Positions 17,819 to 48,478 of a stretch of DNA of 64,000 nt are shown here, piece by piece. Position 1 is the stretch's first letter. The number at the start of each line of letters is the position of its first letter. The notes beneath the pieces were generated by a model that was given only the letters and a program-made list of their open reading frames with translations, was not told where the DNA came from and searched no databases. This DNA comes from Microbacterium phyllosphaerae (lineage in GTDB: Bacteria; Actinomycetota; Actinomycetes; Actinomycetales; Microbacteriaceae), in contig NZ_JAGIOA010000001.1 in assembly GCF_017876435.1 (NCBI RefSeq), positions 3,472,001 through 3,536,000 of the forward strand. The letters run 5' to 3'. The translations under genes and the position numbers were made by a program.

Positions 17819-18907
17819 TCAGCGCCCCGGCACGAGCCCGATCCGCAGTGGTGCCCCCGGTGCGGATGCGGCGGTGATCGCCTCGTCGATCGCCGCCAGC
17901 TGTCGCACCTCGCCGACCGCGTCCGCGAACGGATAGGCGCGACCGCGGCCGGCGAGGAATCCCACCGCGTCGGCCAGCTCGGCGCCGGTGTAGTTGTGCA
18001 CCCCGGTCACGGTGACCAGTCGTCGCACGATACTCTCGGCGTCGACCGGCACAAGGTCTGCGGGAAACACGCTGCCCACGAGCACGACCGTCCCGCCGGT
18101 ACCCACGCCCGCGAGCGCCTCGGACACCGCATGGCCCGATGCCTCGATGACGACGTCAGGGTCACGGTCGAGCTGCGCCGCACCGAACCGTGCGGCGAGC
18201 GCGAGACGGTCGGGCGCGGGATCGAGCACCTCGACGGTCGCTCCGTGCTCGACGGCGATCGCCGCGGCCGAGAGTCCGACGAGACCCGCGCCATGGATGC
18301 GCACCGCTGCACCATCGAGGTCGTGGTCGCGCGCGGCGCGCGCCACGGCGGCCCAGGCGGTGGCGGTCGCGCACGAGGCGGGTGCGAGGACGGATGCCGG
18401 CAGCGACTCGGGCACCCGCACGATCGTCGTGCCCGCTCGCACCTGCACGTGGGTGCCGAAGGCACCGGTGAGATCGCCGTGCACGCCGACCCGATCATGG
18501 CCGTACTTGCCGAGCGTGCGGCACTTCTGCGTCAGTCCGCGTGCGCATCGATCGCACGTGCCGCACGAGATCGTCACCGACCACACGACACGGTCGCCGA
18601 TGCGCAGCGGCGTGCCGTCGACCGCGGTCGCCCCCGCGTCGCCCGTCGCGATCACGCGTCCCACGCTCTCGTGTCCGAGCACCAGCGGCACGGGAGCCGA
18701 TCGGCGCCCCTGCACGGTGTGCACGTCGGACCCGCAGATCGTCGACATCTCCACCGCCACGAGCACGTCGTGATCCGCCAGAGCGACGCCGGGAACCGCG
18801 ATCATCTCGTGCGCGTGCCCCTCGCCGATCCACACCATGGCGGTCGCGGCCGGGCGCAGGGTGACGTCACGGCGATGGCCGGGAGGACGGATCAGCAGCG
18901 TTCCCAT
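17819..18907 (-). CDS. zinc-dependent alcohol dehydrogenase of phosphonate clusters (TIGR03366-like)
   Basis: The 362-residue medium-chain dehydrogenase has a catalytic zinc site in STICGSDVHTVQG (about residue 58) and LGHESVGRV, a structural zinc site CGTCDRCARGLTQKC (about residues 115-129), and a nucleotide-binding fold VRIHGAGLVGLSAAAIA (about 208-225). A clade of such enzymes (HpnZ, TIGR03366) is repeatedly found in phosphonate operons. As the last gene of this operon it probably oxidises or reduces an alcohol/aldehyde formed from a phosphonate. The exact substrate is unknown. It is separated by 13 bases from the HAD gene. Confidence 0.8.
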   Translation of the reverse strand: MGTLLIRPPGHRRDVTLRPAATAMVWIGEGHAHEMIAVPGVALADHDVLVAVEMSTICGSDVHTVQGRRSAPVPLVLGHESVGRVIATGDAGATAVDGTPLRIGDRVVWSVTISCGTCDRCARGLTQKCRTLGKYGHDRVGVHGDLTGAFGTHVQVRAGTTIVRVPESLPASVLAPASCATATAWAAVARAARDHDLDGAAVRIHGAGLVGLSAAAIAVEHGATVEVLDPAPDRLALAARFGAAQLDRDPDVVIEASGHAVSEALAGVGTGGTVVLVGSVFPADLVPVDAESIVRRLVTVTGVHNYTGAELADAVGFLAGRGRAYPFADAVGEVRQLAAIDEAITAASAPGAPLRIGLVPGR

Positions 18908-18920
18908 GTCATCGCCCGAT

Positions 18921-19664
18921 TCAGACGGTCGCGACGAGAGGCAGCAGACCGCGCTCGGCGAGTGCGCCGTGGAGCCCGGTCACATCCGCGAGCACTGCGT
19001 CTGCTCCGGCATCCGTGAGCGCCCGGACGTCGTGGGCGCCGGTGAGCACACCCGCGACGAAACCGGCCCCCGCACGGCGACCGGATTCGACGTCGCTGAC
19101 GGTGTCGCCCGCGACCGCGACCGCGGCGACCGAGGAGGTCTGCGTGCGGATCAGCGCCGTCAGCACGAGGTCGGGCGCGGGGCGCCCTCGGCCGGCATCC
19201 ACCGGCGACAGCACCAGGTCGACGAGACCGCCCCAGCCCAGGCCGTCGATCAGCGCATCCCGGGTCACGGGCGCGAACCCGGTCGTGAGGACGACCGAGA
19301 GACCGGCATCCTTCAGACCCTGGATCGCATCCGCCGCACCGGGGATCTCGGTGACCCCCTGCTCCGCGACGATCTCCGCGTAGGCGCCCTCGAACGCGGC
19401 GGTGGCACGCTCGGCCGCGGCGCGGTCGCCCCCGGCGAGATACGTGAACACGTCGATCTTCGACTGCCCCATGGTCGCTCGCACGTGAGCGAGTGCGTCA
19501 TCCCACGGCATGCGATCAGCGACCCCGGTGCGCTCGGCGGCGCGCTGGAACGCGGTCTCGACGACCCCGTCATCGAGCACGGTGGTGCCGGCCATGTCGA
19601 GGACGACGAGTTCGAGTGCACGGGCCTCTTCGAGTGCGCGGCTCTCTTCTTGTGCAGCGGTCAT
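18921..19664 (-). CDS. phosphonatase-like HAD hydrolase (TIGR03351-like)
   Basis: The 247-residue HAD enzyme has nucleophile motif VLDMAGTTVLDDG (about residues 24-36), motif II TTGFAPVTRD (about 125) and the motif III/IV region GRPAPDLVL then AVAGDTVSDVESGRRAGAG. PhnX phosphonoacetaldehyde hydrolases have the same DxAGT start. TIGR03351 describes a sister group tied to FAD oxidoreductases in phosphonate clusters. The likely reaction is C-P bond hydrolysis of an aldehyde product of the FAD enzyme. The ATG at 19664 overlaps the stop of the preceding gene (ATGA) and is preceded by GGAAGGA; the longer reading frame was rejected. Confidence 0.85.
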   Translation of the reverse strand: MTAAQEESRALEEARALELVVLDMAGTTVLDDGVVETAFQRAAERTGVADRMPWDDALAHVRATMGQSKIDVFTYLAGGDRAAAERATAAFEGAYAEIVAEQGVTEIPGAADAIQGLKDAGLSVVLTTGFAPVTRDALIDGLGWGGLVDLVLSPVDAGRGRPAPDLVLTALIRTQTSSVAAVAVAGDTVSDVESGRRAGAGFVAGVLTGAHDVRALTDAGADAVLADVTGLHGALAERGLLPLVATV

Positions 19665-20845
19665 GATGATCCTTCCATTGCGGGTGCCCACCCGAAGGCG
19701 GCGGTGAGATTCTCTTCGGCGAGCCCCAGACCCGTGGTCATTCCGATGCCGGTGGTCGCGGCGAGCACCAGCACCCCCTCATCGCCCCTGTCGATGAGGA
19801 AGTCCTGTGCAGCCTTCGCGTAGACGCCCTGCCAGCGCTCCAGCACGCGGGGTGCCGGCATGTCGAACAGCGCTTCCGCCTCAGCCAGGAAGGCGGCGAA
19901 CGCGGCCTCCGGCTGGAACGGGTCGGGCGCGGTCGACGTGGAGTGCGAGTCGCCGATGATGAGGGTGCCGTCCGGCAGCTGCGTGTACATCTGGTTCAGG
20001 TCGAGGGCGGCGAGATCGGGGCGCTCCGCATGCAGCCTCTCTCTCAGAGCGGCCGTCGCGGGCCCGTCGGCGAAGCGTCCGTACCGCACGAGCGACCAGC
20101 CGGTCAGCAATGGCGCGGCCAGCGGATGCCGCAGCGTCACCGCCGCGCGCATCATGTCGAGCGCGCAGCGGACGACGCCGACGCGCTCGGCGACCTCGGG
20201 CAGCAGCTGGTCGATGTCGTGATTGACCGCGACGACGACGGCACCCGCCGTGATCGCGCCCCGGGTCGTGTCGACGCGTCCGCCCGAGACCGCGGTCACG
20301 GCTGTGCGGAAGCGGAACTCGACGCCCAGGTGCGAGAGGTGCCGGACGATCGCCGAGGCCGCGGCGCGCGGGTCGGTCTGCAGGTCGGTCTCGATGTGGG
20401 CTCCGCCCACCAGTCCCTCCGCACGCAGCGGCGCCAGTCGCAGCAGCTCGTCGGTCTCGAGCATCCGGATGCCACCCTCGGCCGCCGCGTGTTCGAGCAC
20501 CGCGACCTCGTCGGCATGACGGGCCGCGACCAGGGTGCCGGATTCGCGCAGCCAGAAGCCTGCGTCACGTGACAGGCGCAGCCACAGGTCGCGGGAGGCA
20601 TCCGCATAGCGGCGCGCCTCCCCCGCCTGTGCTCCGATGCAGAGGTGGCCGAAGTTGCGGATCGTCGCTCCGACCGGAGCATCCGCTCTGTCCACGACGA
20701 TGACGCTCAAGCCCCGACGCGCGGCCGCGTAGGCCGCCCCGAGGCCGACGATGCCCGAGCCGACGACGACGAGATCCGCCAAGCCTGCGGGGGTGCCTGC
20801 GGGGGTGCCTGCGGGGCTGCCTGCGGGCGTGCCTGCGGGGCTCAT
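19661..20845 (-). CDS. FAD-dependent oxidoreductase of phosphonate catabolism (TIGR03364-like)
   Basis: The 394-residue DAO-type flavoprotein has the dinucleotide motif LVVVGSGIVGLGAAYAAARR beginning near residue 24, NFGHLCIGAQ, and a C-terminal GIGMTTGLGLAEEN. TIGR03364 enzymes neighbour phosphonatase-like hydrolases and are proposed to oxidise an aminophosphonate to an aldehyde. The N-terminus is unusual: residues 2-21 are five PAG[TS]-type tetrapeptides coded by a 12-bp tandem repeat directly behind the start codon. The ATG overlaps the phnE stop as ATGA. The chemistry is known only by family inference. Confidence 0.85.
   Translation of the reverse strand: MSPAGTPAGSPAGTPAGTPAGLADLVVVGSGIVGLGAAYAAARRGLSVIVVDRADAPVGATIRNFGHLCIGAQAGEARRYADASRDLWLRLSRDAGFWLRESGTLVAARHADEVAVLEHAAAEGGIRMLETDELLRLAPLRAEGLVGGAHIETDLQTDPRAAASAIVRHLSHLGVEFRFRTAVTAVSGGRVDTTRGAITAGAVVVAVNHDIDQLLPEVAERVGVVRCALDMMRAAVTLRHPLAAPLLTGWSLVRYGRFADGPATAALRERLHAERPDLAALDLNQMYTQLPDGTLIIGDSHSTSTAPDPFQPEAAFAAFLAEAEALFDMPAPRVLERWQGVYAKAAQDFLIDRGDEGVLVLAATTGIGMTTGLGLAEENLTAAFGWAPAMEGSS
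20783..20842 (-). repeat. five 12-bp tandem repeats at the phnE/oxidoreductase junction
   Basis: GCCTGCGGGGGT (plus strand) and variants fill 20783-20842 in five units. They code for the Pro-Ala-Gly-Thr/Ser repeats at the oxidoreductase N-terminus and start exactly at the overlap of the phnE stop with the new ATG. Confidence 0.9.
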
Positions 20846-22602
20846 CGGAACACCTTGCGCATCCACATCGCGAGCCCTTCGACCACGAGCACCGTCACGA
20901 GGATCATCAGCACGATCGCGGTGACCGTCTCGTACCGCGATCCCTGGCTGGCATTGAGCAGGTAGTAGCCGACTCCGCCGCCGCCCACGATGCCGAGGAT
21001 CGTCGCCGCGCGGATGTTCGTGTCGAGCATGTAGAAGCTGTGCCCGATGAGCGCCTGCATGCCCTGCGGCACCGTGGCCGAGGCGTAGGTCTGCAGACGG
21101 GTGGCGCCCACAGCGCGGAGCGCGCGCTCAGGCCCGCGATCCACCTCCTCGAACGAGTCGGCGATGAGCTTTCCGAGCAGTCCGATACCGCCGATCGCCA
21201 GGGCGATGACGCCCGCCTGCGCCCCCAGCCCGGTGATCACGACGAGCACGATCGCGAGGATCAGCTCCGGGATCCCTCGGATGCCGACGAGCAGGAAGCG
21301 AGCGGCGCCGCGGGCGCCGGAGCTCGGTGCGACGTTGCTCGCGGCGAGGGAGCCGAGGATCAGCGAGGGCACCAGCGTGAGCACGGTGGCGGCGAGCGCG
21401 ATCGCGACGGTGTCGCGCATGGCGGCGATCATCGCCGACGCCTCGTAGCTGCCGAACGACGGCGGCCAGAACTTGGCGGCGACGTCGGGGAGCTTGCCCC
21501 AGAACGTGAAGAAGTCCATCCAGTTGATCTGGCTGACGATCACGCTGCCGATCACGACCAGCACCGCGATCACGACACCGGTCGTGTTGCGCACGCGCTC
21601 TGCCGTCCACGGCCGACGTACGGCCGCCCGGGGAGATGCCGCCCACGCGGGGCTGGTGCTCGCGGAGTCACTCACCCGGTCGCCGAGGCGGGGGTGGATG
21701 AGGCGATCGATCCACGAACGGGTCTGCTTCTGCTGTCCGAGCATCGCGCCGCGCACCATGCTCGAGATGATCTCCATCGCGACGCAGAGCAGGAAGATGA
21801 CCAGCGCGATGCCGAGACCCTCGCCGTAGTTGAGCGCCTTGAACGCATACGACATCTCGAGTCCGAGACCTGCGACGCCGACATAGCCGAGCACGACACT
21901 GCCACGGAGGTTGATGTCATTGCGGTGCAGGACGGTCGCGACCCAGCTCGGCAGCACCTGCGGCAGGATGCCCGAGGCGAACTCCTGCATCTTCGACCCG
22001 CCTGCCGCGCGGATCGCGAGGCGGGGCCCCTCGTCGATCTGCTCGATCGCATCGGCGAACATCTTCGAGATCATGCCGATCGAGTGGATGCCGATCGCGA
22101 GGATGCCGGGGAGAGTGCCGAGCGAGAACATCAGCACGAACGCCATCGCGAGCACCACATCGGGGAGCGCTCGGGTGAGCACCCCGACGAATCGCGCTGC
22201 GGCACGCCATCCGTTGCCCGGAGTCGTGTTCGATGCGGCGAGGTAGGCGATGGGCACCGACAACACGGCGGCGAGCAGCGTACCGACCAGCACCAGCCCG
22301 ACAGTGAGGGCGATCAGCCAGGCGAGATCCCCGGGTTCGGGAAATGTGAGCCCTCCGACGCGGGCCATGAAGTTCTCGGCATTGCCCCAGCTCTGCACCA
22401 TCGCCGGGATCGAGATGCCCACCTCGTCGACGGCCAGGATCCCGAGCGCGACGAGAACGAGCAACGTGAGCCCGGCGGCGATCCGCTCGGGCGAGATCGG
22501 GCGTCGGGGAGCGCGATCGGCGACGGTCGCTGATGCCGAGCCCGCGCCGCGGGTGGCGTCGCGTGCCGGCCGTGCGGCCGGTGGGCCGGAGAGCAGGGTC
22601 AC
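20842..22602 (-). CDS. phnE: phosphonate ABC transporter permease, fused PhnE1-PhnE2
   Basis: The 586-residue protein contains two complete PhnE-type permease domains. The first (about 40-300) has its coupling helix in DEGPRLAIRAAGGSKMQEFA, the second (about 330-580) in DRGPERALRAVGATRLQTYA; each is followed by a stretch of membrane helices. Most organisms encode these as one homodimeric or two separate permeases, so the fusion guarantees a 1:1 heterodimer. The GTG at 22602 was chosen because it overlaps the phnC stop as GTGA; the long frame further upstream lies inside phnC. It works with PhnC and PhnD to import organophosphonates. Confidence 0.92.
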   Translation of the reverse strand: MTLLSGPPAARPARDATRGAGSASATVADRAPRRPISPERIAAGLTLLVLVALGILAVDEVGISIPAMVQSWGNAENFMARVGGLTFPEPGDLAWLIALTVGLVLVGTLLAAVLSVPIAYLAASNTTPGNGWRAAARFVGVLTRALPDVVLAMAFVLMFSLGTLPGILAIGIHSIGMISKMFADAIEQIDEGPRLAIRAAGGSKMQEFASGILPQVLPSWVATVLHRNDINLRGSVVLGYVGVAGLGLEMSYAFKALNYGEGLGIALVIFLLCVAMEIISSMVRGAMLGQQKQTRSWIDRLIHPRLGDRVSDSASTSPAWAASPRAAVRRPWTAERVRNTTGVVIAVLVVIGSVIVSQINWMDFFTFWGKLPDVAAKFWPPSFGSYEASAMIAAMRDTVAIALAATVLTLVPSLILGSLAASNVAPSSGARGAARFLLVGIRGIPELILAIVLVVITGLGAQAGVIALAIGGIGLLGKLIADSFEEVDRGPERALRAVGATRLQTYASATVPQGMQALIGHSFYMLDTNIRAATILGIVGGGGVGYYLLNASQGSRYETVTAIVLMILVTVLVVEGLAMWMRKVFR

Positions 22603-23471
22603 GAGACGCGCGCCTTCTCGGTCAGCACGGCGTCGATCTCGGACGCGTCGACGACGACATCCGTGGTGATGTCGGTGAGCTCGGCCCGCACGGCCTGGAT
22701 TTCGGCGGTCGTCGTGGCGACGCGGCCGTAGATCTCCATGACCTCGGCCTTGGTGAGGTCGGTGGTGGGGGTGTCGAGCACGATCTCGCCGTGACGGAGC
22801 CCCACGATACGGTCGGCCCACGAGATCGCGAGGTCGACCTGGTGCAGGCTGCAGACCACCGTGAGCCCCTCATCGGCGGCGATCTCGCGGATCAGCGCCA
22901 TCACCTGATCGCTGGACTCGGGGTCGAGAGAGGCGACGGGCTCGTCGGCGAGCAGGATGTCGGGCTTCTGCATGAGCGCTCGCGCGATCGCGACCCGCTG
23001 CTGCTGACCACCCGAGAGGGTGTCGCTGCGCTGGTAAGCACGGTCGAGCAGGCCGACGCGGTCGAGGTGCCCGAGCGCCCGCAGCTTCGCGGCTTTCGAG
23101 TAGCCCCACAGGCCGAGACGCGGGCCCCTGACCTCGGAGAGGGAGCCGGTGAGCACGTTCTCGAGAACGGTGAGCGAGGGCACGAGCTCGAACTGCTGGA
23201 AGATGAAGCCCACGCGGCTACGGAGCGTGCGCAGCGCCCTGCCCCTCAGGGCCGGCACCTGGGAGCCCAGCACCTCGATGTCACCGGAGGTCGGAGTCTC
23301 GAGTCCGTCGAGATGGCGGAGCAGCGTCGACTTGCCCGAACCGGAGAGTCCGAGCAGCACGACGATCTCGCCGCGTGACACCTGCAGCGACACATCCTTG
23401 AGTGCCGTCGTCGAACCGAAGTTCTTGGTCACGCCCGCCAGGCGGATCAGGGCATCGGATGCCGCATTCAT
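22599..23471 (-). CDS. phnC: phosphonate ABC transporter ATP-binding protein
   Basis: The 290-residue ABC ATPase has Walker A GLSGSGKST (about residue 41), Q-loop FIFQQFELVPSLTVLENV, signature LSGGQQQRVAIARAL (about 155), Walker B ILLADEPVASLDP and switch His in VVCSLHQVDLAISWADR. The sequence after the Q-loop (GSLSEVRGPR) is typical of PhnC. An extra acidic tail of about 45 residues extends beyond the usual ATPase end. It energises uptake through the fused PhnE. Confidence 0.93.
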   Translation of the reverse strand: MNAASDALIRLAGVTKNFGSTTALKDVSLQVSRGEIVVLLGLSGSGKSTLLRHLDGLETPTSGDIEVLGSQVPALRGRALRTLRSRVGFIFQQFELVPSLTVLENVLTGSLSEVRGPRLGLWGYSKAAKLRALGHLDRVGLLDRAYQRSDTLSGGQQQRVAIARALMQKPDILLADEPVASLDPESSDQVMALIREIAADEGLTVVCSLHQVDLAISWADRIVGLRHGEIVLDTPTTDLTKAEVMEIYGRVATTTAEIQAVRAELTDITTDVVVDASEIDAVLTEKARVS

Positions 23472-23635: not shown

Positions 23636-24565
23636 TCAGCCCTGGCACTGCTCCGCTTCGGTCTCCTTGCAGATGTCGCGGATCAGGTCGTAGTACGCAT
23701 CGTCGACCGGCTTCGTGGCGTAGAAGACGCTGCGGAAGGCGTCGGTGTCGGCGCTGTCGATACCGGCGGCGATGATGTCGTCGATCGTGATCTCGGAGAG
23801 CCCGTCGATGAGCTTCTTCGAGACGTCATCCGGAAGCGTCGAGGAGTAGACGAGCGGAGCGCCCGGGACCATGGTCTCGTCGATGACCTTCACGGCATCC
23901 GACTTCTCGACCTCGGAGTCTTCGGCGAAGCCGACCTCGCACTCGACTCCCTCGCCGACCTTCTGCACACTCACGTCGTGCTTGCCCGCGAAGACGGGGG
24001 TGATGTCGGTCTTGGGGTCGATACCCGCCTCGAGCAGGTTGTATGACGGGAAGAGGTAGCCCGACGTCGACGACGGGTCGACGAAGCAGACCTTCTTGCC
24101 CTTGAAGTCCTCGATGCTCGAGATGTCGCTGTCGGCGGGGACGATCGCCTGGGAGTAGTAGCCGGGCTCCTGGCCCTCTTCGGTCACGATCGACGAGATC
24201 GGCGTGAGCTTCGCGCCGTTGTTCGTCGCGGTGACGTAGGTGAAGCCCGAGAACGAGGCGACGTCGACCTTGCCGGCGACGGCGGCCTCGATGAGAGCCG
24301 CGTAGTCGGTGGACTCGTGGTACTCGACGGTCTTGCCGGTGATCTCGGCGATGTAGTCCATGAGCGGCTGATAGTTCGTCTCGGTGTCGACCGAGTCGGG
24401 CACGACGCCGAAGACGAGGGTGTTCTCGTCGACGGCGAAGCCGCTGGTGGCGGACGACTCGTCAGCACCGGCACTGCCGGTTGCCTCGGCGGTGCCGGAA
24501 CAGGCGGCGAGGCCGAGCGCGAGGATCGCGGCGCCGGCGAGTACGGGGAGAGCGCGGAGCTTCAT
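23636..24565 (-). CDS. phnD: phosphonate ABC transporter substrate-binding lipoprotein
   Basis: The 309-residue lipoprotein has an N-terminal signal peptide ending in the lipobox LAAC at about residue 21, then a Ser/Ala/Glu linker. The mature PhnD-like fold begins TLVFGVVPDSVDTETNYQP, with VDVASFSGFTYV and KVCFVDPSSTSGYLFPS as binding-cleft segments. PhnD proteins bind 2-aminoethylphosphonate and related compounds outside the membrane. It is the first gene of the six-gene operon, so regulation acts on its promoter. Confidence 0.93.
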   Translation of the reverse strand: MKLRALPVLAGAAILALGLAACSGTAEATGSAGADESSATSGFAVDENTLVFGVVPDSVDTETNYQPLMDYIAEITGKTVEYHESTDYAALIEAAVAGKVDVASFSGFTYVTATNNGAKLTPISSIVTEEGQEPGYYSQAIVPADSDISSIEDFKGKKVCFVDPSSTSGYLFPSYNLLEAGIDPKTDITPVFAGKHDVSVQKVGEGVECEVGFAEDSEVEKSDAVKVIDETMVPGAPLVYSSTLPDDVSKKLIDGLSEITIDDIIAAGIDSADTDAFRSVFYATKPVDDAYYDLIRDICKETEAEQCQG

Positions 24566-24735: not shown

Positions 24736-25479
24736 GTGGCCGAAGCTGTATACACCCAGATCGCTGACGACCTGCGTGCCCGGATCGCGGAGGGCACTCT
24801 GCGCCCCGGCGATGACGTTCCCACGGAGTCGGAACTCGCCGACCGGTGGCACACCTCGCGTGGCCCGATCCGCAATGCGCTGGCCGCGCTGCGGAGTGAA
24901 GGCCTCATCGAGACGGGTCGCGGTCGTCCGGCTCGCGTCGTCGCCCGCAAGGCGAGTCAGGCCGTCGACATGTCGGTCCCGTTCACTCGCTGGGCCCGCG
25001 AACTCGGGGTCACGCCGGGTGCGCAGACCCAGGAACTGAGCCTGCGTCGCGCCGGCGATCGCGCCGAGATGCTCGGCGTCGCTCCCGACGACACGATCGT
25101 GAGCGTCGTGCGTCTGCGGCTGCTCGACGGCAGGCCGACGATGCTCGAGCGACTCTTCTACACGGAGGCCGTCGGACGACGACTGTTCGACGTGGACCCC
25201 GACGAGATCTCGATCACCGAGTACCTGGGCTCGGTCGGGCATCCGATCGTGGGACTGCAGCATCAGATCGACGCGGTCGCGGCGGACGAGCAGGATGCTG
25301 CGCTACTGCGCGTGCCGCAGGGGACGCCGATCCTTCGGTTGAGCAGGATCTCCAGAGACGCGGACGGGCACATCTTCGAAGCGTCGGAAGACCGGTACCT
25401 CAGCGAGGTCGTGCGCTTCACGGTCGCCGCATCCGGGATATCGACGGACGGCCACTACATGCGTGCGGTGGGCGGGTAG
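24736..25479 (+). CDS. GntR family regulator with UTRA domain (PhnF-like)
   Basis: The 247-residue protein has a winged helix at residues 5-72 (YTQIADDLRARIAEG, then TESELADRWHTSRGPIRNAL) and a UTRA effector domain at about 90-240 (DTIVSVVRLRLLDGRPTMLERLFY, ending in FEASEDRYLSEVVRF). HutC/PhnF-type regulators sense small metabolites and usually repress the adjacent uptake operon. It is divergent from phnD with a 170-base gap that holds a palindrome. Control of the phosphonate operon is therefore likely; the effector is unknown. Confidence 0.88.
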   Translation: MAEAVYTQIADDLRARIAEGTLRPGDDVPTESELADRWHTSRGPIRNALAALRSEGLIETGRGRPARVVARKASQAVDMSVPFTRWARELGVTPGAQTQELSLRRAGDRAEMLGVAPDDTIVSVVRLRLLDGRPTMLERLFYTEAVGRRLFDVDPDEISITEYLGSVGHPIVGLQHQIDAVAADEQDAALLRVPQGTPILRLSRISRDADGHIFEASEDRYLSEVVRFTVAASGISTDGHYMRAVGG

Positions 25480-29869: not shown

Positions 29870-30518
29870 ACCCGCAAGTCAACACGGAACCACCGACATT
29901 CAAGACCCGAAACCACCCCGATTTACCCCAGATCAGAGCACGTATCCCAGCCTTCCGGAATGCCGCAGAGAGACAGGCGTAACGGTGGGATGGAAACGGC
30001 GAAGCGAAGACACGAGAACAGGAGATGAGAAAACGAGAAGACACGAGAACGGGAGAGGAGAGAACGAGAAGACACGAAAACGGGAGAGGAGAGAACGAGA
30101 AGACACGAGAACAGGAGATGGGAGGAGTGAAGAAGAAGACACGACTCGAGTCGAGAGGAGAAGAGCAGAGCAGAGCAGATACGAACGCGATGGGTCTCCG
30201 GACCCTGGGAGCAAAGGTGAGACAGGTGCATGGGCTCAGGGGCCAACCGGCGGATGGCATCGGCGAGCGGGACAGGAGGTGGAACAGCGGGCGAGAACGG
30301 GCAGACGGGACCGGAGGCGGAACAGGCCGATGCGACCTGTAGGCCAGCGCAGGTGAGACCCTGGGGGCTGGCCGCAGGTGGGACAGGAGGTAGGCCAGCG
30401 CGGGTGAGACTCGGGGCGGGGGCCGGTGGCCGCGGGCGGGACCGAAGGTGGCCAGCACAGGTGAGAAGTGGGGCGGGCGGGAGCTCCGCGCAGAAAAGAA
30501 GCACGAGCGAGCGGACGA
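29870..30518. other. 649-base non-coding region, purine-rich with repeats
   Basis: No frame here looks like a gene. From about 29990 to 30190 the plus strand is almost entirely A and G, including four 31-bp tandem repeats. From 30330 to 30480 the motif CCAGCGCAGGTGAGA recurs in degenerate copies (near 30348, 30393 and 30453). Both neighbouring genes are on the minus strand, so the HNH promoter should lie near 29880 and the end of the GNAT gene is at 30519. Confidence 0.7.
30002..30125 (+). repeat. four 31-bp polypurine tandem repeats
   Basis: Units start at 30002, 30033, 30064 and 30095. The core is ACGAGAAGACACGAGAACGG followed by GAGAGGAGAGA. The second and third units differ at one base; the outer two are more diverged. 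Confidence 0.9.
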
Positions 30519-31018: not shown

Positions 31019-31885
31019 TCACAACGCGAGCAGCACGATGCCGACCGCGACCACAGCGGAGGCGGCGATCCGCCATCCCGGCCTGCTCTCCTTCAGCGCG
31101 AAGACGCCGAACAGTGAGACCAGCACGACGCTGACCTCGCGCAGCGGCGCGACGAGGGCGACGGGCGCGATCTGGATGGCTGTGAGCACGAGGATGTACG
31201 ACAGCGGCGACAGGATGCTGAATGCCGCGATCCGGCGCCACTGCGTGCGTCCGAGAGTGCGTACGGCGGCCCACCGACCTCGCACGCCGATCGAGTAGAA
31301 CGGGATCTCGAGCAGCATCGTGCCGACCATGAACGCGACGGGCGACAGGTTCCAGGTGCGCACGGCGTTCGCGTCCCAGATCGTGTAGATCGCGATTGCC
31401 ACGCCGGTGAGCAGGCCGAACAGAAGCCCCGGATCGATGCCCCGTCGCGAGCCTGCTGAGCGACCTCGGTCGACGACGCCGATCGCGACGACTCCGAGGA
31501 TGATCGCGCCGACGCCGACGAGCGCGAGAGCCGACGGACTCTCCCCCAGCAGCACGACGGCGATGATGACCGACAGGAAGGGTCCGGTTCCCCTCGCCGT
31601 CGCATAGACCGTCGAGAGGTTGCCCTCCCGGTATCCGCGCTGAAGCACCGCCATGTAGACCACATGCAGCACAGCAGAGACGCCGACCCCCAGCAGGAAC
31701 CCCTGCACGTCGTCGGTGCCGAGTCCCCCGGTGAACGGGATGACTCCGATCCACACGGCCGTGCCGCCGACCGCACCCCACCACAGGAACGGCATCCCTG
31801 CCCTGCTCACGCCATGGGCGATGACGTTCCACGCGGCGTGGGTGATCGCGGCGGCGAAGACGAGAGCGAAGGCGAGAGCGGACAT
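31019..31885 (-). CDS. EamA/DMT transporter under ykkC-class riboswitch, candidate guanidine exporter
   Basis: The 288-residue protein has ten membrane segments forming two EamA repeats (about 1-135 and 148-288), beginning MSALAFALVFAAAITHAAWNV and containing GNLSTVYATARGTGPFLSV and SPLSYILVLTAIQIAPVALV. Its 5' leader contains a ykkC-class aptamer. Genes under guanidine-I aptamers typically export or degrade guanidine, most often small SMR pumps such as SugE. Here the family is the larger EamA type. Export of guanidine or a guanidinylated compound is inference from the leader; the sequence alone gives no substrate. Shine-Dalgarno GGAAGGG lies six bases before the ATG. Confidence 0.85.
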   Translation of the reverse strand: MSALAFALVFAAAITHAAWNVIAHGVSRAGMPFLWWGAVGGTAVWIGVIPFTGGLGTDDVQGFLLGVGVSAVLHVVYMAVLQRGYREGNLSTVYATARGTGPFLSVIIAVVLLGESPSALALVGVGAIILGVVAIGVVDRGRSAGSRRGIDPGLLFGLLTGVAIAIYTIWDANAVRTWNLSPVAFMVGTMLLEIPFYSIGVRGRWAAVRTLGRTQWRRIAAFSILSPLSYILVLTAIQIAPVALVAPLREVSVVLVSLFGVFALKESRPGWRIAASAVVAVGIVLLAL

Positions 31886-31921
31886 GCGAGACCCTTCCGT
31901 CCGTCGCGAGGCGCGACGAAC

Positions 31922-32024
31922 AGGGTCCTCCGGGCTTTTGTCCTGTCAGATGACGGCACCCCTGCGGAGAGGCGCCGTGGCGCCGCTCGGACCAGACGGG
32001 ACGAACCCCGGAACCCTAGGCGCT
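31922..32024 (-). promoter_or_regulatory. ykkC-class riboswitch, probably guanidine-I
   Basis: Read on the minus strand the conserved blocks appear in order: CTAGGGTTCC (32019-32010), GTCTGGTCCGAG (31997-31986), a variable hairpin ending in GCCGTC, and AAAAGCCCGG-AGGA (from 31939). These are the hallmark segments of the ykkC motif. A small hairpin GTCGCG-CCT-CGCGAC (31903-31917) lies between the aptamer and the Shine-Dalgarno sequence and may be the expression platform. Guanidine-I is favoured because a transporter follows, but the related ppGpp and PRPP subtypes share these blocks and were not excluded. Confidence 0.8.
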
Positions 32025-32097
32025 ATCGAGAGCGACAGTACCCGGAGACGGTGACCAGCAGGTGAACAGACACCGGGAGCAGGATGCCCGGAGAACC

Positions 32098-32137
32098 GTG
32101 AAGCGCCCGGCACGGGGATCCGTACCGGGCGCTTCAC
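32098..32137 (-). terminator. strong terminator hairpin behind the wall-protein gene
   Basis: GTGAAGCGCCCGG (32098-32110) pairs perfectly with CCGGGCGCTTCAC (32125-32137), a 13-bp stem. It sits directly after the stop of the wall-protein gene on the minus strand. No long U-run follows, as is common in actinobacteria. Confidence 0.85.
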
Positions 32138-32145
32138 ATCAGTTC

Positions 32146-35100
32146 TCAGTCCGTCAGGCTGTGCTCGGTCTCCCGGCGACGCACGCGTGACACGAAGAGC
32201 ACGAGCGCACCGACCGCCAGCAGCGCGAGCGCCCAGCCGAGCCCGGTGATGACGCCACCGGTCACTGCCAGCACGTCGAGATCGACCGTCGCGGTCGCCG
32301 CGGCCGTGACGACGACGGTGCCCGCGGCACCGCTCACCGTCGCCACGTTCACGACCTTGCCGCTCGCGACATCGGCCGTGGTCAGCGTGTAGCCGATCGG
32401 TCCGCAGGCGGCGGTGTCACCGGGCGCGAGGTCGGCGATCTCGCAGGCGAGCGTCGCGCCGAGTTTCGGATCGTCGATGGCGATGGCCGTCAACGTCCGC
32501 GCACCGGTGTTCGTCACAGTGAAGCGGAACTGCACGGTGTCGCCGGCATCCACCTTGCCGTTCCCGTTCACATCGGCGTACTCGCCTCCGGTCTTCGCGA
32601 GCGCGATCGCCGGCTGCACCTCGAGAGGCGTCGTGACCGTGTCTTCGGCGGACGGTGGCACGTCTCCTGTTCCTGTGCCGGTCGCCGTCGCGGTGTTGAC
32701 GATCTGCCCGGCGTCGATCTCGGCCTGAGTGATCACCGCGGCAGGGCCGGTGCACAGCGCCGAGTCGCCGGGGGCGAGGTCGGTCGTGTCGCACACCACA
32801 TCGCCGTCCAGGCGCGGATCGGACACCGCGACGTCGGTGAGACGTGTGGTTCCCGAGTTCGTCACGGTGAACGTGTAGGCGATGGTGTCGCCGGCATCCG
32901 TCCGTCCGTTGCCGTTCGCGTCGACGACCGCAGCCGCAGACTTCAGCAGGGTGAGCGCATCGGTGCCGATCACGGTCACATCGGCATCGTCGGCGCTCTC
33001 GGCGCTTCCGGCGACCGACTGACCGGTCACCGTCGCCGTGTTGCGGACGATGCCTGCGTCGACGTCGTCCTGAGTGAGCAGGTACTCGACCGGTCCGCAA
33101 TCGACGACGTCGGTCGGCACGAGTGCGAGACCGTCGAGAGCGGGGCAGTCGACGATGCCGCCGAGCAGCGGGTCATCGAGCACGATGTCGGTCAGCACGG
33201 TCGTGCCGGTGTTGCGGATCCGGAACGAGTAGGCGATCGTGTCGCCCGCGCCGATCATGCCGTCGTCGTTCGCGTCGACCGGCTCCCCCGGGGTCTTCGT
33301 CAGCGAGATGCCGGGGGTTCCGACGAACACGATCTCGGCGGAGGCATCGTCACGCACCGCGCCCAGCGGCCCCGTGCCTGTCGCGGTCGCCGTGTTCGGT
33401 CGGCTGCCGTTCTCGATATCGGCCTGCGTGAGCGTGTACGTGAAGGGTCCGCAGTCGTTCGCTGCGCCGACTGCGAGCTCGTCGACCGCGCACAGCGCAT
33501 CGTCGCCGAGCAGCGGGTCGGTGATCTCGACGTCGTCCAGGGTCGTGTTGCCCGTGTTGCGCACCGTGAACGAGTACTGGACCGTGTCACCGGCGCCGAT
33601 GAACCCGTCGCCGTTCGCATCCTGCACCTGACCGACGTTCTTCTGCAGATCGATGCCCGCGGTGCGCTCGATGTCGGCTGAGGCGGATGCCGTGTCTGTC
33701 ACCGTTCCGACGGGGGCGTCGGCGGTGACGGATGCCGTGTTGCGCACGATCCCCTCGTCGATGTCGCCCTGCGTCAGCGTGTAATCGACCGGCGCGCACG
33801 TCACAGACGCCCCCGGGGCCAGCGAGGCCCCCGCGAGAGCCGCGCACACGACCGGTCCGCCCAGCATCGGGTCGCTGATCTGCGCATCCGTGAGCGTGGT
33901 CGTCCCGGTGTTCGTGACGGTGAACGTGTAGGCGATGGTGTCACCGGCTGTGACATCCGAGCTGCTGTCGGCGTCGTCGACCAGGCTCGGCACCTTGGTC
34001 AGCACGACGCTGTTCACGGCAGGGACGATCACGTCCGCCTCCGCGCCGTCGGTCGCCGTGCCCAGCGCGGACTCGGCGGTGACGGATGCCTCGTTGTGCA
34101 CCGTGCCCTCATCGATGTCCTGCTGCGTGAGCACGTAGTCCACAGGAGCGCAGGTCACCGACGCCCCCGGCGCGAGCGGTGCGCCGAAAGCCGCGCAGGC
34201 CACCGCTCCCCCGAGCAGGGGGTCGGTGATCGCGGCGCTCGTGAGCGTCACGTCGCCGGTGTTACGCACCGTGAACGTGTAGGCGACGGTGTCGCCGACG
34301 TCGGTGCGTCCGTTGCCGTTCGCATCGACCGGAGCCCCGGCCGTCTTGACGAGCTCGACGCGAGGGGTCCCCGACACGGGGACCTCGACCGTCGAGCTGT
34401 TGTCGGACGGATCGGGATCCGGCGTCGTCGATGTCACGGTCGCGGTGTTCGACAGCGCGGCGCTCGCGATCGCGGGGTCGACCGTTCCGCTGACCGTCGC
34501 GGTGAACGTCGCGCCGACGGCGAGCGCGCCGACCGCGCAGTCGAGCTGCGCGGCGGTGATCGAGCATCCGGCTGTCGGAGTCGTCGGGTTCAACAGGCCG
34601 GCCGGCAGGGAGTCCGCGATCGCGACGGCGGATGCCGGGCTCGGTCCGCCGTTCGTCACGACGATCGTGTAGGTGATCGACCCGTTCACGGGAGCCGGAT
34701 TCACCGAGCTCGTCTTGACGATCGACAGGTCGGCCGACGGCGTCACGATGACCGTCGAGGTGCCGGTGTTGTCGGAAGGATCGGGGTCGGGCGTCGGCGA
34801 GGTCGCCGTCGCCGTGTTGGTGAGCGTGCCGACCACGGTCGCGGTGGCCGTCACGGCCAGGGTGGCGGACTCGCCGGGCAGCAGAGTGCCGACCGTCCAC
34901 TGATGATCGGCGGGCGACCATGTGCCCGCCGACGGCGCCGCCGAGGTGACCTCGAGCCCGGCCGGCGCGACCTCGGTCACGACGACGCCCGCAGCGGCGG
35001 ACGGGCCGTCGTTGCGCACCGTGATCACGAAGCTCGCCTCACCGCGAAGCGGGATGCTCGGAGTCGACGTCGTCTTCACCACGCTGACATCCGCACTCGG

Positions 35101-37737
35101 CGTGAGCGCCACGTCGACACTGGACGTGTTGTTCGCCGTGCTCGGGTCCGGCGTCGCAGAGGTGGTCGTCGCGGTGTTGCGGATCGTGCCGGAGGCAGTC
35201 GCCGCCCACGTGCCTGTGACGTTCACCGTGACGGAGTCCCCCGGTGCGAGATCGCCCACCGAGCACGTCACCGCGCCTGCGCCGATGGAGCAGCCCGCGT
35301 CGTCGACCGACGTGGCGGTGAACCCTGCCGGCAGGGTGTCGGCGAGGGTCGCGCCGCGCGCCACCGACGGACCGTCGTTCGTCACGACGAGCGTGTAGGT
35401 GAACGCGCTGCCGGGGGTCCCCGTGGCGGGAGCGGACTTCTGGATGCTCAGGTCGGCGCTCTGCACGATCTCGACATCGACCGAGTCGGAGTTGTTCGCG
35501 GTGTTGACGTCATCCGCAGGCGACGCGATCGACGCCGTGTTGGTCGAGACGCCCACGGGCGCGTCGGAATCGACGACCGTCGAGACGACCACATCGACGG
35601 GGCCGCCGACCACGAGATCGGCCCAGGTGCACCGGATCGATCCGGCGGTGAACGAGCAGTCCGAACCGGCGGGTCCTGTGACCCCGGTCACGGTGAACCC
35701 GGCCGGGAGGGTGTCGTCGAGCACCGCGTTGACGGCATCCGAGTCGCCGAGGTTGCTGACGGCGAGGGTGAAGTCGACCGTGTCACCGGCGGCGACCTGA
35801 GCAGCGGATGCAGTTTTGGTGACCGCCAGGTCGGCGATGATGTCGGGCTGGAAGCTGGTGGAGTCGACGTTGTTGGTGGGGTCGGAGTCGGGCGTGCTGC
35901 TCGTGACGCTCGCCGAGTTCTGCACGACGGCGGCGGCATCCGCATCGATCTCGACGACGATGGTGGTGGTCACCACGGCGCCGGGAGCGAGGGTGCCGAT
36001 GGCGCAGTCGACGATTCCGGATGCCACGGTGCATGTGCCCTGATCCGACAGCACGCTCACGAAGGCGGTCTCGGGGTCGAGCGGGTCGGTGAGCCGCACA
36101 TCGCGGGCCTCGGACGGGCCGTCGTTGCGCGTGATCAGCGTGTAGGTGACGTTCTGACCCGCGACGGGAACCGCCGGGAAGAACGACTTGGTCACCGACA
36201 CATCGCTGATCGCTGTCAGGGAGCCCGACGCGGTCGCGGTGTTGTTCGCGAGGTTGACGTCGAAGCGCGTGCCCGACACCGAGGCGGTGTTCGTGAGCGC
36301 CGCCCCCGGCTCGAACGAGGGTGAGACCGTACCGGTCACGGTGATCGTCGCGCCGGCCCCGACCGCGAGGTCAGGAAGGGCGCACGAGATCGTCGCGCCG
36401 ACGGTGCAGGATCCACCACTCGGCGTCGCCTGCACGGCTGTCAGCCCGGCGGGCACGGCATCCGTCACGGTGACCCCTGTTGCGGTCTGGGGTCCGTTGT
36501 TCGTGACCCCGATCGTGAAGGTCACCGGCTGGCCCGCGACCAGCGGACTCGTGTCGAGCGTCTTGGTGATCGCCAGGTCGGCCGCCTGATTCACCGGTGT
36601 GAGTGCCTCCTGCGTGGTCGACGTGCGGTCGATGTTGGTGACCGGTTCGCGGAAGGCGACCCGCGCCTCGTTGACGATCGTGGTGCCGGCAGCCTCCGTC
36701 CTGACCTTGGCGTCGAACGTGTACGACGTGACCGCATCCACGCCGACGGAGCCGCCCGCCGTGGCGGTTCCCCCATCGCCGAGGCGTACCCTCAGCGTGC
36801 GGTTCCCGCTCGTGTACTCGCCTCTGTCATCGCCTGTCGCGTCGGTGAGCGTTCCAGCGCCGGGTCCGCTCACGATGCGGATCGAGCCCGGCACGAAGTC
36901 GATTCCGGCGGGCAACACGTCGGTGGAGACCGACTGGAGGGCCGGGTTTCCGCCGTCGTTGCGGGTGGTGACGGTGTAGCGAAGCGTGTCGCCGATCTCG
37001 GCCGACGTGCCGCCACGGGTGAGGTTGGCGACCGATTTGGTCGAGATGAGGCAGGGCCCGGTGCCGAACGCGATGTCGTCGAGCAGGTTGCCGACGGACG
37101 CGTTGCCGGTCGCGCTGCTGACCGCCTGGAATCCGAAGCGCGTCGTGGTCTGACCTGCCGGAACCGTGTACGAGCCCGTGTGGGTCCCCCAGGCCGCGGT
37201 GCCGTCGGTGAGCGAGCCGCTGACGTTCGTGAGGGTGCTCCCCGGCACGCCGATCACGACGCGCATCGTGTCATTGCCCTCACGTCCGCGGTGCTTGAGC
37301 GACCAGTACAGGGTCTGCCCCGGTGTCGTCGCGACATCCTGGTAGAGCGTGCTCGCCTGCGTGGCGTTGAGCTCGGCGAACTGCGAGCCCTGCCCTGCCG
37401 GGTAGTTGCGGGGGTTGCCGGGGGAACGCCACAGCTCGATCTGGTTGTCGGTCGCGGTCGTGAACCAGCCGGGCACGAGGGCTTCGTCGGCGATGATCAC
37501 CCCTGAGGCGAACACCGGCTGCTCGAAGCTGCCGTTGTCGAGCGAGAGCGAACCTGCGCACTGGGTCGGGTTCTGCGCCGCGGATGCCGGCGTCGGCGCC
37601 ACGGTCTCCGTGACGACCGTGAGCCCCACCGCGATCAGAAGTGCGGCCGTCGCACCGGCGATGGTGCGACGAATGGACGAGTGAGCGTGTGCGGCCACAG
37701 CTGTACCCTGCGTTTCTCCCCCGAGGTCTCCCCGCAT
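32146..37737 (-). CDS. giant cell-wall protein with DUF11-type repeats and LAVTG sorting signal
   Basis: The protein has about 1,863 residues. A signal peptide (hydrophobic core AALLIAVGLTVV) ends at PASAA. Next is a lectin-like domain starting LDNGSFEQP, a DUF11-like unit, six more DUF11 units from about residue 386 (ADLAITK, SDVSVTK, ADLAVTK and so on), then six repeats from about 1122 of the form VxLxKxxG...DANGNGRTDxGDT...FTVxNTG. The C-terminus has LAVTG (about 1820), a membrane segment and an Arg-rich tail, the layout of sortase E substrates. It is probably an exported stalk or adhesin. ATG at 37737 was used; GTG at 37698 gives a more typical signal peptide and is equally possible. Confidence 0.9.
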   Translation of the reverse strand: MRGDLGGETQGTAVAAHAHSSIRRTIAGATAALLIAVGLTVVTETVAPTPASAAQNPTQCAGSLSLDNGSFEQPVFASGVIIADEALVPGWFTTATDNQIELWRSPGNPRNYPAGQGSQFAELNATQASTLYQDVATTPGQTLYWSLKHRGREGNDTMRVVIGVPGSTLTNVSGSLTDGTAAWGTHTGSYTVPAGQTTTRFGFQAVSSATGNASVGNLLDDIAFGTGPCLISTKSVANLTRGGTSAEIGDTLRYTVTTRNDGGNPALQSVSTDVLPAGIDFVPGSIRIVSGPGAGTLTDATGDDRGEYTSGNRTLRVRLGDGGTATAGGSVGVDAVTSYTFDAKVRTEAAGTTIVNEARVAFREPVTNIDRTSTTQEALTPVNQAADLAITKTLDTSPLVAGQPVTFTIGVTNNGPQTATGVTVTDAVPAGLTAVQATPSGGSCTVGATISCALPDLAVGAGATITVTGTVSPSFEPGAALTNTASVSGTRFDVNLANNTATASGSLTAISDVSVTKSFFPAVPVAGQNVTYTLITRNDGPSEARDVRLTDPLDPETAFVSVLSDQGTCTVASGIVDCAIGTLAPGAVVTTTIVVEIDADAAAVVQNSASVTSSTPDSDPTNNVDSTSFQPDIIADLAVTKTASAAQVAAGDTVDFTLAVSNLGDSDAVNAVLDDTLPAGFTVTGVTGPAGSDCSFTAGSIRCTWADLVVGGPVDVVVSTVVDSDAPVGVSTNTASIASPADDVNTANNSDSVDVEIVQSADLSIQKSAPATGTPGSAFTYTLVVTNDGPSVARGATLADTLPAGFTATSVDDAGCSIGAGAVTCSVGDLAPGDSVTVNVTGTWAATASGTIRNTATTTSATPDPSTANNTSSVDVALTPSADVSVVKTTSTPSIPLRGEASFVITVRNDGPSAAAGVVVTEVAPAGLEVTSAAPSAGTWSPADHQWTVGTLLPGESATLAVTATATVVGTLTNTATATSPTPDPDPSDNTGTSTVIVTPSADLSIVKTSSVNPAPVNGSITYTIVVTNGGPSPASAVAIADSLPAGLLNPTTPTAGCSITAAQLDCAVGALAVGATFTATVSGTVDPAIASAALSNTATVTSTTPDPDPSDNSSTVEVPVSGTPRVELVKTAGAPVDANGNGRTDVGDTVAYTFTVRNTGDVTLTSAAITDPLLGGAVACAAFGAPLAPGASVTCAPVDYVLTQQDIDEGTVHNEASVTAESALGTATDGAEADVIVPAVNSVVLTKVPSLVDDADSSSDVTAGDTIAYTFTVTNTGTTTLTDAQISDPMLGGPVVCAALAGASLAPGASVTCAPVDYTLTQGDIDEGIVRNTASVTADAPVGTVTDTASASADIERTAGIDLQKNVGQVQDANGDGFIGAGDTVQYSFTVRNTGNTTLDDVEITDPLLGDDALCAVDELAVGAANDCGPFTYTLTQADIENGSRPNTATATGTGPLGAVRDDASAEIVFVGTPGISLTKTPGEPVDANDDGMIGAGDTIAYSFRIRNTGTTVLTDIVLDDPLLGGIVDCPALDGLALVPTDVVDCGPVEYLLTQDDVDAGIVRNTATVTGQSVAGSAESADDADVTVIGTDALTLLKSAAAVVDANGNGRTDAGDTIAYTFTVTNSGTTRLTDVAVSDPRLDGDVVCDTTDLAPGDSALCTGPAAVITQAEIDAGQIVNTATATGTGTGDVPPSAEDTVTTPLEVQPAIALAKTGGEYADVNGNGKVDAGDTVQFRFTVTNTGARTLTAIAIDDPKLGATLACEIADLAPGDTAACGPIGYTLTTADVASGKVVNVATVSGAAGTVVVTAAATATVDLDVLAVTGGVITGLGWALALLAVGALVLFVSRVRRRETEHSLTD

Positions 37738-37809
37738 CGTTCGGAACGACACACCTCGCGACTCGACCATAGACCCGGACCCCGCCTGGATTCGGTCCCG
37801 TATCGAACG

Positions 37810-37840
37810 CCGATATCGGATCGAGACCGGTATTCCGGTC
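37810..37840. promoter_or_regulatory. palindromes between the wall-protein and aminopeptidase genes
   Basis: CCGATATCGG (37810-37819) and GACCGG-TATT-CCGGTC (37825-37840) lie side by side in the divergent gap. They could be operator sites for either gene. A -10-like TACGAT at 37906 serves the aminopeptidase side. Confidence 0.4.
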
Positions 37841-37939
37841 ATATCGGCTGTGGTGACCTGCGGCCGCTGACGGGCGGTTCGACGAGGTGCCCCGGCCTCG
37901 CCGATTACGATCGAAGGACCCCCTTCAGGAAGGTCGCTC

Positions 37940-39223
37940 ATGCCCGTCACCCCGGATGCACTCGCCCACGCCGAGGACCTCGCCGACTTCGTCGCCGCCT
38001 CGCCCTCGAGCTATCACGCCGCCGCCGAGGTGGCCAGGCGGCTGGAGGATGCCGGATTCGAGCCTCTCGCCGAGGAGGACGCGTGGGACGTGACTCCCGG
38101 AGGACGCTACCTCGTCGTCCGCGACGGGGCCGCCATCGCGTGGACCGTTCCAGCGGATGCGACGGCCGTGACCCCCGCGCACGTGCTCGGCGCCCACACC
38201 GACTCCCCCGGGTTCAAGCTCAAGCCGCAGCCGACCACCGGGTCGAAGGGCTGGCTGCAGGTGGCCGTCGAGGTCTACGGCGGCCCGCTCCTCAACTCCT
38301 GGCTCGACCGAGAGCTGCGCCTCGCCGGACGCCTCGCCCTCGCCGACGGCCGCGTCGTGCTCGCCGACACAGGTGCGCTGCTGCGCCTTCCCCAGCTCGC
38401 CGTGCACCTCGACCGCGAGGCGAACAGTGGACTCGCGCTCGACAAGCAGTTCCAGACGCAGCCCGTCTGGGGGCTCGGCGACCCGACACAGGAGGACATC
38501 CTGGCGGAGCTCGCGGACTCTGCCGGCGTCTCGGCATCCGAGATCCGCGGCTACGACGTCGTGATCGCCGACTCGGCGCGCGGCGCGGTGTTCGGCAAGG
38601 ACGACGCGTTCTTCGCCTCCGGCCGTCTCGACGACCTCGCCTCCGTGCACGCGGGAGTTGTGGCACTGGAGGCTCTCGGCACGCCCGCGACCGGCCCCAT
38701 CGCGATCCTCGCCGCCTTCGACCACGAGGAGCTCGGCTCCAACTCGCGCTCCGGCGCGGCGGGTCCTTTCCTCGAAGACATCCTCGGCCGCGTGTACGAC
38801 GCCCTCGGCGCCGACTCGTCCGAGCGTCGCCGCGCCTTCGCCGCATCGTGGTGCCTGTCGAGCGACGTCGGCCACTCCGTGCACCCGAACTACGTGCACA
38901 AGCACGACCCGGTGGTGCAGCCCGTGCTCGGCTCGGGACCGATCCTCAAGCTCAACTCCAACCAGCGCTACGCGACGGATGCGGTCGGCTCCGCCGCTTG
39001 GCGCAACTGGTGCGAGGCGGCCGACGTCGTCACGCAGGAGTTCGTCTCGAACAACAATGTGCGGTGCGGGTCGACGATCGGCCCGATCACGGCGACGCGT
39101 CTCGGCATCCGCACGGTCGATGTCGGCATCCCGATCCTGTCGATGCACTCGGCGCGCGAGCTCGCCGGAGTCTCGGATCTGCACGACCTCGCCCGCGTGG
39201 CGGGAGCATTCTTCGCCGGCTGA
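37940..39223 (+). CDS. M18 family aminopeptidase
   Basis: The 427-residue metallopeptidase has zinc-ligand regions GAHTDSPGFKLKP (His, about residue 86), SGRLDDLASVHAG (bridging Asp), DHEELGSNSRSGA (catalytic Glu-Glu) and SMHSARELAG near the C-terminus (last His). M18 enzymes form large cytoplasmic dodecamers that remove N-terminal Asp, Glu or neutral residues from peptides. Start ATG follows AGGAAGG at a good distance. The length fits the family. Confidence 0.93.
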   Translation: MPVTPDALAHAEDLADFVAASPSSYHAAAEVARRLEDAGFEPLAEEDAWDVTPGGRYLVVRDGAAIAWTVPADATAVTPAHVLGAHTDSPGFKLKPQPTTGSKGWLQVAVEVYGGPLLNSWLDRELRLAGRLALADGRVVLADTGALLRLPQLAVHLDREANSGLALDKQFQTQPVWGLGDPTQEDILAELADSAGVSASEIRGYDVVIADSARGAVFGKDDAFFASGRLDDLASVHAGVVALEALGTPATGPIAILAAFDHEELGSNSRSGAAGPFLEDILGRVYDALGADSSERRRAFAASWCLSSDVGHSVHPNYVHKHDPVVQPVLGSGPILKLNSNQRYATDAVGSAAWRNWCEAADVVTQEFVSNNNVRCGSTIGPITATRLGIRTVDVGIPILSMHSARELAGVSDLHDLARVAGAFFAG

Positions 39224-46381: not shown

Positions 46382-46436
46382 TACCCTGAGGGCATGGACA
46401 TTTCACTATTGTGACGCTCGGCACGATTGTTATATG
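46382..46436 (+). promoter_or_regulatory. kynA promoter region
   Basis: TTGTGA (46409-46414), a 16-base spacer and TATATG (46431-46436) form a good promoter. A second box TACCCT (46382-46387) lies six bases before an ATG at 46394 that opens the six-codon frame MDISLL, ending on the TGA inside the -35 element; this could be a second, leaderless start with an upstream frame. Confidence 0.5.
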
Positions 46437-46468
46437 TTCTTCCTGTCCCCCACGACAGGAAGCGACCC

Positions 46469-48477: not shown

Positions 48478-48478
48478 C

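Follow-up and report, generated by a model that had tools for sequence, protein, structure and literature searches.

The window, by which we mean the whole stretch of 64,000 nucleotides of Microbacterium phyllosphaerae DNA that was analyzed, contains on its minus strand a ykkC-type RNA followed by the gene of an EamA/DMT transporter (Table 1). The reading frame of the latter matches PF00892 with 53.6 bits (cut-off 28.2), so the EamA gene that the earlier note had placed downstream of the aptamer on this strand is indeed there. An aminophosphonate operon lies 6 to 14 kb downstream of the aptamer on the same strand, and a GntR-type regulator faces it. The operon is new here, and absent from the earlier note. 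The true start of PhnE lies inside the open frame given in the table. Two-component genes and a DUF222/HNH gene separate EamA from GntR in the window; since EamA adjoins GntR in other loci, we infer that these are insertions.

Table 1. Features of the riboswitch locus and the phosphonate operon in the window.
Feature	Coordinates	Strand	Basis
Predicted −10 element TACTGT (TANNNT)	32035..32040	−	Conserved box spacing
ykkC subtype 2d aptamer, putative (P1, P1a/b, P2, P3)	31926..32030	−	RF00442 49.6 bits; R2 103.6 bits; covariation
Expression platform, hairpin over Shine-Dalgarno	31890..31927	−	Folding energy and covariation
Shine-Dalgarno GGAAGGG of EamA gene	31892..31898	−	6 bases before ATG
EamA/DMT transporter, regulated gene, 288 residues	31019..31885	−	PF00892
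GntR-UTRA regulator	24736..25479	+	Resembles HutC and PhnF, under both cut-offs; same neighbor at other loci
PhnD-type binding protein	23636..24565	−	TIGR01098 166 bits (cut-off 112); PF12974
PhnC ATPase	22599..23471	−	TIGR02315 298.5 bits (cut-off 266)
PhnE permease, two domains in one frame	20842..22821	−	TIGR01097 414 bits (cut-off 217), two stretches
FAD oxidoreductase, HpnW type	19661..20866	−	TIGR03364 374.5 bits (above cut-off 285.1)
Phosphonatase-like HAD hydrolase	18921..19691	−	TIGR03351 (PhnX-like) 210.1 bits (just under cut-off 218.9)
Zn alcohol dehydrogenase of phosphonate clusters (HpnZ)	17819..18907	−	TIGR03366 325.8 bits (just under cut-off 328.1)

A GNAT reading frame follows on the same strand, as previously noted, but the proposal that it acts on the same compound does not fare well. 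It is not part of the core, and a relative is present in only 8 of 150 loci (L001, L048, L086, L099, L113, L146, L149 and L152), whose EamA proteins are 84–100% identical to that of the window; some other loci are too short to judge. Between the GNAT and DUF222/HNH genes there is a pyrimidine-rich stretch with repeated units (about 29900–30500). On the other side of the riboswitch, positions 32146–37950 encode a 1934-residue protein of DUF11/DUF7507 repeats, and a strong hairpin after its stop codon (about 32085–32150; −48 kcal/mol for 66 nt, z −7.5) may end that transcript before the riboswitch. Further away, at 46427–49732, are genes resembling tryptophan 2,3-dioxygenase and kynureninase, named by eye; a similar dioxygenase-like gene stands just upstream of the RNA at locus L061.

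The minus strand contains CTAGGGTTCC, then GTCTGGTCCGAG, then AAAAGCCCGG, all within a full-length match to RF00442 (Guanidine-I), so the earlier report of three conserved blocks in order ahead of the EamA gene is confirmed. That note also assigned the RNA to the guanidine-I class and suggested a covariance-model search against it. The search returns 49.6 bits (E = 5e-7 for 4 kb), and the Rfam gathering cut-off for Guanidine-I is 63 bits. Because the score falls below this, the default Rfam scan of the window lists no riboswitch. When RF00442 is run over the 3.73 Mb genome at E ≤ 10 the aptamer is the sole match. The base at the pocket marker, position 31985, is C. The marker of the guanidine-I pocket is A (A46), and subtype 1 has A where subtypes 2a and 2b have a pyrimidine, according to the available portions of PMC6031431. 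In the RF00442 alignment of the window RNA the pocket C-G pair of guanidine-I is unaligned. The marker is C in all 32 RNAs of the family to which this genome belongs, and these were found by the Rfam model with no requirement for C. The pattern used to scan the named genomes did require C at the marker, and loci from that scan are therefore no test of it.

A covariance model, R2, was built from 18 RNAs that precede TSUP (TauE) genes only. R2 scores the window RNA at 103.6 bits (E = 1.7e-22), and the seven EamA-type family loci of a 30-locus set, the window's own included, at 64–105 bits. Guanidine-I loci, defined by their Rfam score or by an A marker, score 30–51 bits with R2 (thirteen rows, twelve of them distinct, L032 and L180 being the same place). 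Conversely the Rfam model gives 77–85 bits on four guanidine-I loci of the same phylum, which precede other gene types, against 49.6 for the window. The EamA-type RNAs of the family and the TSUP-type RNAs therefore form one class apart from guanidine-I, and guanidine-I membership of the window RNA is rejected on the RF00442 score, the marker base and the TSUP-only model. In two genomes of family f6 a guanidine-I RNA lies about 0.1 kb from a guanidine-III RNA on the opposite strand (L032, 1501–1604(−) and 1723–1788(+); L181, 1501–1597(−) and 1711–1774(+)), and a gene of an SSS-like transporter, named by eye, follows the guanidine-I element in each.

Subtype 2d of ykkC is an orphan riboswitch candidate found before EamA (phn_DUF6) and TauE genes (PMC5912903, PMC7266159), which the 2020 review, in its available portions, lists with no known ligand (PMC7266159). 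By sequence, model scores and gene association the leader is very probably a riboswitch of this subtype. The authors of the class placed 2d closest to guanidine-I and guessed at a guanidine-like compound as its ligand; in the accessible text phosphonate use is named solely as the description of the transporter family (PMC5912903). No later literature naming subtype 2d was found in a search of mostly open-access papers.

The gene types agree with this assignment. Motif loci were collected from the pattern scan of named genomes (at least 119 stretches) together with the family loci, some genomes carrying two identifiers. The sources of all 80 scan matches listed are Actinomycetota. Among the matches listed plus the family loci, the motif is present in 150 of 165, and the gene that follows is EamA in 124 and TSUP in 21 of 150; five are too short, so that every one of the 145 resolvable loci has EamA or TSUP next, in keeping with subtype 2d. 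With R1, a model made from 61 of these RNAs, more distant relatives came to light in 394 genomes of the class. Ten divergent RNAs have the C marker and all precede transporters, namely another EamA subfamily (L044, L045, L193, L194, L233, L234, L236), other EamA proteins (L179, L185) or an MFS protein (L188). Seven of them (L044, L045, L185, L188, L193, L194, L233) have pocket blocks that fit by eye and score 37–51 bits with R2, within the range of guanidine-I loci; L179 reaches 64 bits, and L234 and L236 were left out. At L188 (genome G996) the RNA spans 1501–1615 and scores 44.8 bits before an MFS-like gene, and a PhnE gene is present on another contig. Two further loci, L042 and L046, stand before a HAD/NUDIX-like gene and by gene type look like subtype 2c.

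In 135 of 137 distinct leaders the CTAGGG block is preceded by a TANNNT box at a distance of 20 or 21 bases. Given this fixed position, transcription probably begins at GAYAG, a conserved stretch at the edge of the aptamer; in the window that would be near 32027. On the 3′ side of the aptamer, the 53 nt with the platform hairpin fold at −27.5 kcal/mol (z −2.85). In 136 sequences its three stems are paired in 84–91% of cells, and 12 of its 15 pairs have changes on both sides. GAAGG of the Shine-Dalgarno is nearly invariant in alignment A1, and in 116 of 135 genes the distance from the AAAAGCC block to the first start codon is 44–49 nt. Over the same 136 sequences the whole leader structure has standard pairs in 91.7% of cells, against 81.0% when shuffled and 33–46% when slid. 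Both sides change in 25 of 40 pairs, and none of 500 shuffles equals the leader on any of five measures, in a test that took the structure from the window's own sequence and ignored kinship among the sequences. A closing pair for P3, beneath its two G-C pairs, was rejected, as 122 of 136 sequences have no standard pair there.

In the mechanism we propose, the hairpin would hide the Shine-Dalgarno of the EamA gene when ligand is absent. Bound to its ligand, the aptamer would use its own 3′ edge (GGAGGA), which is also the base of the hairpin, and the Shine-Dalgarno would be freed. As the base of the hairpin shares the 3′ edge of the aptamer the two states should be mutually exclusive. A covarying hairpin over the Shine-Dalgarno makes it probable that this is a translational ON switch; the hairpin has the backing of covariation, and the switching is our deduction from the shared edge.

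The best NCBIfam match of the EamA protein is TIGR03340, phn_DUF6, whose title is ‘phosphonate utilization associated putative membrane protein’. In the PDB the AlphaFold model (pLDDT 91.6) comes nearest to LicB, a choline importer, with a TM of 0.82, and to 5i20, nucleotide-sugar transporters and the triose-phosphate/phosphate translocator. LicB is matched by the EamA profile too (E = 1.4e-5), as is EmrE, though weakly (E = 7e-4 to 7e-3). Acidic D171 and E250 and basic R98, R249 and R272 are invariant in 118 EamA proteins, as are E165, R57, R111, R112 and K176 in 17 TSUP proteins.

Genes like those of the window's operon recur near other EamA-type loci. PhnD, PhnC or PhnE was seen at 32 of the 58 named EamA-type loci with at least 4 kb downstream, and at 20 of the 58 none of the seven genes sought was within reach, matches to PhnC and GntR below 40% identity having been discarded. 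At L047 and L085 the three enzymes directly follow EamA with no transporter genes between. At L206 (aptamer end 13405) two different PhnDCE-like sets flank the EamA gene; the upstream set is divergent, and the downstream one is codirectional with a TIGR03364 gene. The genes of these sets were named by eye. In the available flanks of 19 TSUP loci no phn genes were found, and no gene besides TSUP is common to more than four of the 19.

Independently of adjacency, the FAD oxidoreductase TIGR03364 was followed over 299 genomes of the family. The RNA was found in 32 of these by a search with strict filters, which may miss weak matches, and TIGR03364 in 88. All 32 genomes with the RNA have TIGR03364 (P = 9e-20, kinship ignored). 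Counted by genus it is present in 15 of 15 with the RNA against 36 of 85 (P = 3e-7, again ignoring kinship). The neutral gene hutU occurs in 19 of the 32 and in 164 of the 299 (P = 0.36). The two lie within 13 kb of each other in 22 of the 32 genomes. In six, including the TSUP-type G285, they are 0.18–2 Mb apart on one contig, and in four they are on different contigs. The converse does not hold, as 56 of the 88 family genomes with TIGR03364 are without the RNA.

Outside the family the picture is different. TIGR03364 occurs in 2 of 13 genomes with 2d-like RNAs and 6 of 26 others (G574, which is 2c-like, was excluded from both groups), and for TIGR03351 the figures are 4 of 15 and 10 of 14; neither is enriched, and no general link of the RNA with enzymes of aminoethylphosphonate (AEP) oxidation was found there. 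PhnJ is present in 2 of 23 genomes. PhnE is found in 9 of 13 2d-like genomes and 2 of 10 others, but those ten come from two families only and the comparison is therefore unmatched. The nine are all of EamA or MFS type, TSUP types giving 0 of 4: the four TSUP-type genomes (G737, G678, G951, G981) have no PhnE, TIGR03364, PhnJ or TIGR03351.

The matched comparison is family f96, with eight RNA matches in the 22 genomes searched, that of G834 being placed by the model alone. Six of the loci have a different EamA subfamily, and all six stand 2–9 kb from PhnE, a gene found in 8 of the 22 genomes (association by genome P = 4e-4, kinship ignored). The other two RNAs, in G737 (TSUP) and on contig 21 of G856 (another EamA), have no PhnE nearby. 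At the f96 loci PhnD-PhnC-PhnE is divergent from the RNA and 27–47% identical to that of the window, and the substrate of these transporters is therefore not fixed as phosphonate. R2 gives the f96-type RNAs 37–38 bits, not above guanidine-I loci, and their subtype is therefore uncertain.

Phosphonates are carbon-phosphorus compounds that bacteria can use as a source of phosphorus. The known roles of TSUP proteins mostly concern organic anions, among them sulfonates, which are analogues of phosphonates. We tentatively suggest as ligand a small phosphonate from the AEP route, which the EamA or TSUP protein would export when it piles up. Candidates would be AEP, N-methyl-AEP, hydroxy-AEP, phosphonoacetaldehyde and phosphonoacetate. 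Besides the operon in the window, the co-occurrence in the family and the f96 loci, three lines converge on it: the chemistry of the FAD enzyme, the metal and phosphate contact of the PRPP aptamer and the role of TSUP with sulfonates. AEP clusters contain FAD enzymes, among them one with the annotation TIGR03364, that oxidize N-methyl-AEP, and in some cases AEP too, to phosphonoacetaldehyde (PMC10590968, available portions). In the PRPP aptamer (2b) a phosphate is held by a metal that the subtype-2 pyrimidine coordinates (PMC6031431, available portions). The reading as a whole, a 2d riboswitch acting as a translational ON switch with a small-phosphonate ligand and its exporter, has in our judgment a little under an even chance. 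Its most specific form is a shade more speculative than the ligand suggestion above: orphan 2d might be a phosphonate riboswitch that responds to a C-P compound from the (N-methyl)aminoethylphosphonate route and opens an exporter as a relief valve, with the unrelated EamA, TSUP and perhaps MFS proteins recruited to the role. The export of a phosphorus source counts against the proposal, and is unexplained. So do the lack of enrichment outside the family, the TSUP-type genomes without phosphonate genes, the EamA loci with none of the seven genes in reach, the family genomes with TIGR03364 but no RNA, the failure of R2 to split the divergent RNAs from guanidine-I and the guanidine-like guess by the authors of the class.

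The alternative that survives best, though we think it rather unlikely, is that 2d senses a small, toxic guanidine-like cation, for example methylamine from N-methyl-AEP oxidation, the operon being the source of the ligand and not the ligand's own pathway. Methylamine is the amine expected from that reaction (PMC10590968, available portions), and the proximity of 2d to guanidine-I drawn by the authors of the class is joined by their placing its transporters in the superfamily of guanidine exporters (PMC5912903, available portions). The weak EmrE match, the match to a choline importer and the invariant acidic residues of both protein types suit a cation; the invariant basic residues, four of them in TSUP, the organic anions of TSUP proteins and a marker that is the pyrimidine of phosphate-binding subtypes do not. 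Less probable again is that the RNA responds to phosphite, phosphate or some other indicator of phosphorus status; PhnDCE genes nearby would be expected then as well. TIGR01098 spans phosphate, phosphite and phosphonate, and the low identity of the f96 PhnDCE fits such a signal, but the partner in 32 of 32 family genomes is an FAD enzyme of the amine-oxidizing type, which phosphite use does not need.

Elsewhere the ykkC fold reads guanidine, ppGpp, PRPP or nucleoside diphosphates. The RNA has the ykkC scaffold, and that it reads some ligand other than guanidine, which the earlier note had entertained, is probable; the examples of the note, ppGpp and PRPP, are favored by nothing at this locus. 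Membership of subtype 2a, 2b or 2c, sensing ppGpp, PRPP or a nucleoside diphosphate, would agree with the pyrimidine marker, yet is very improbable, as the genes are transporters and not amino-acid, purine or NUDIX/HAD genes, and with a start predicted about 4 nt before P1 a P0 strand like that of the PRPP aptamer would hardly fit. That the RNA is a genuine guanidine-I riboswitch in control of an EamA protein that exports guanidine is scarcely credible in spite of the common scaffold, with the sub-threshold score, C in place of A, the unaligned pocket pair and the higher-scoring guanidine-I loci of the phylum all against it.

If the small-phosphonate proposal is true, organophosphonates would have a riboswitch, and aminophosphonates both a sensor and an exporter. 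As the RNA co-occurs with one named pathway, guesswork about the ligand can give way to a short list of testable compounds.

The window RNA folds overall like Guanidine-I (RF00442) and shares its CUAGGG, CUGGUCCGAG and AAAAGCC blocks; it differs in the marker base and the score, its pocket strand is longer by 1 nt in the Rfam alignment (2 nt by eye), and its 3′ side is shorter by 1 nt. With the PRPP (2b) and ppGpp (2a) riboswitches, as described in the available portions of PMC6031431, it shares the pyrimidine at the marker, but from its predicted start the P0 helix, formed in those subtypes by conserved 5′ and 3′ ends, would have little space, and it precedes transporter genes in place of biosynthesis genes. 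The transporter is matched by TIGR03340 over nearly its full length, yet at 99.9 bits is well under the family cut-off of 288.15. The operon resembles the AEP clusters with PbfB, PbfC and PbfD in its FAD oxidoreductase and phosphonatase-type hydrolase; TIGR03364 is named there for one PbfD, and EamA appears nowhere in that main text (PMC10590968). The closest likeness is to the published 2d candidate (PMC5912903, PMC7266159, available portions), with which it shares the ykkC scaffold, the non-guanidine marker and EamA or TauE genes downstream, and to which the present analysis adds the phosphonate operon, the genome-wide co-occurrence and the covarying hairpin over the Shine-Dalgarno.
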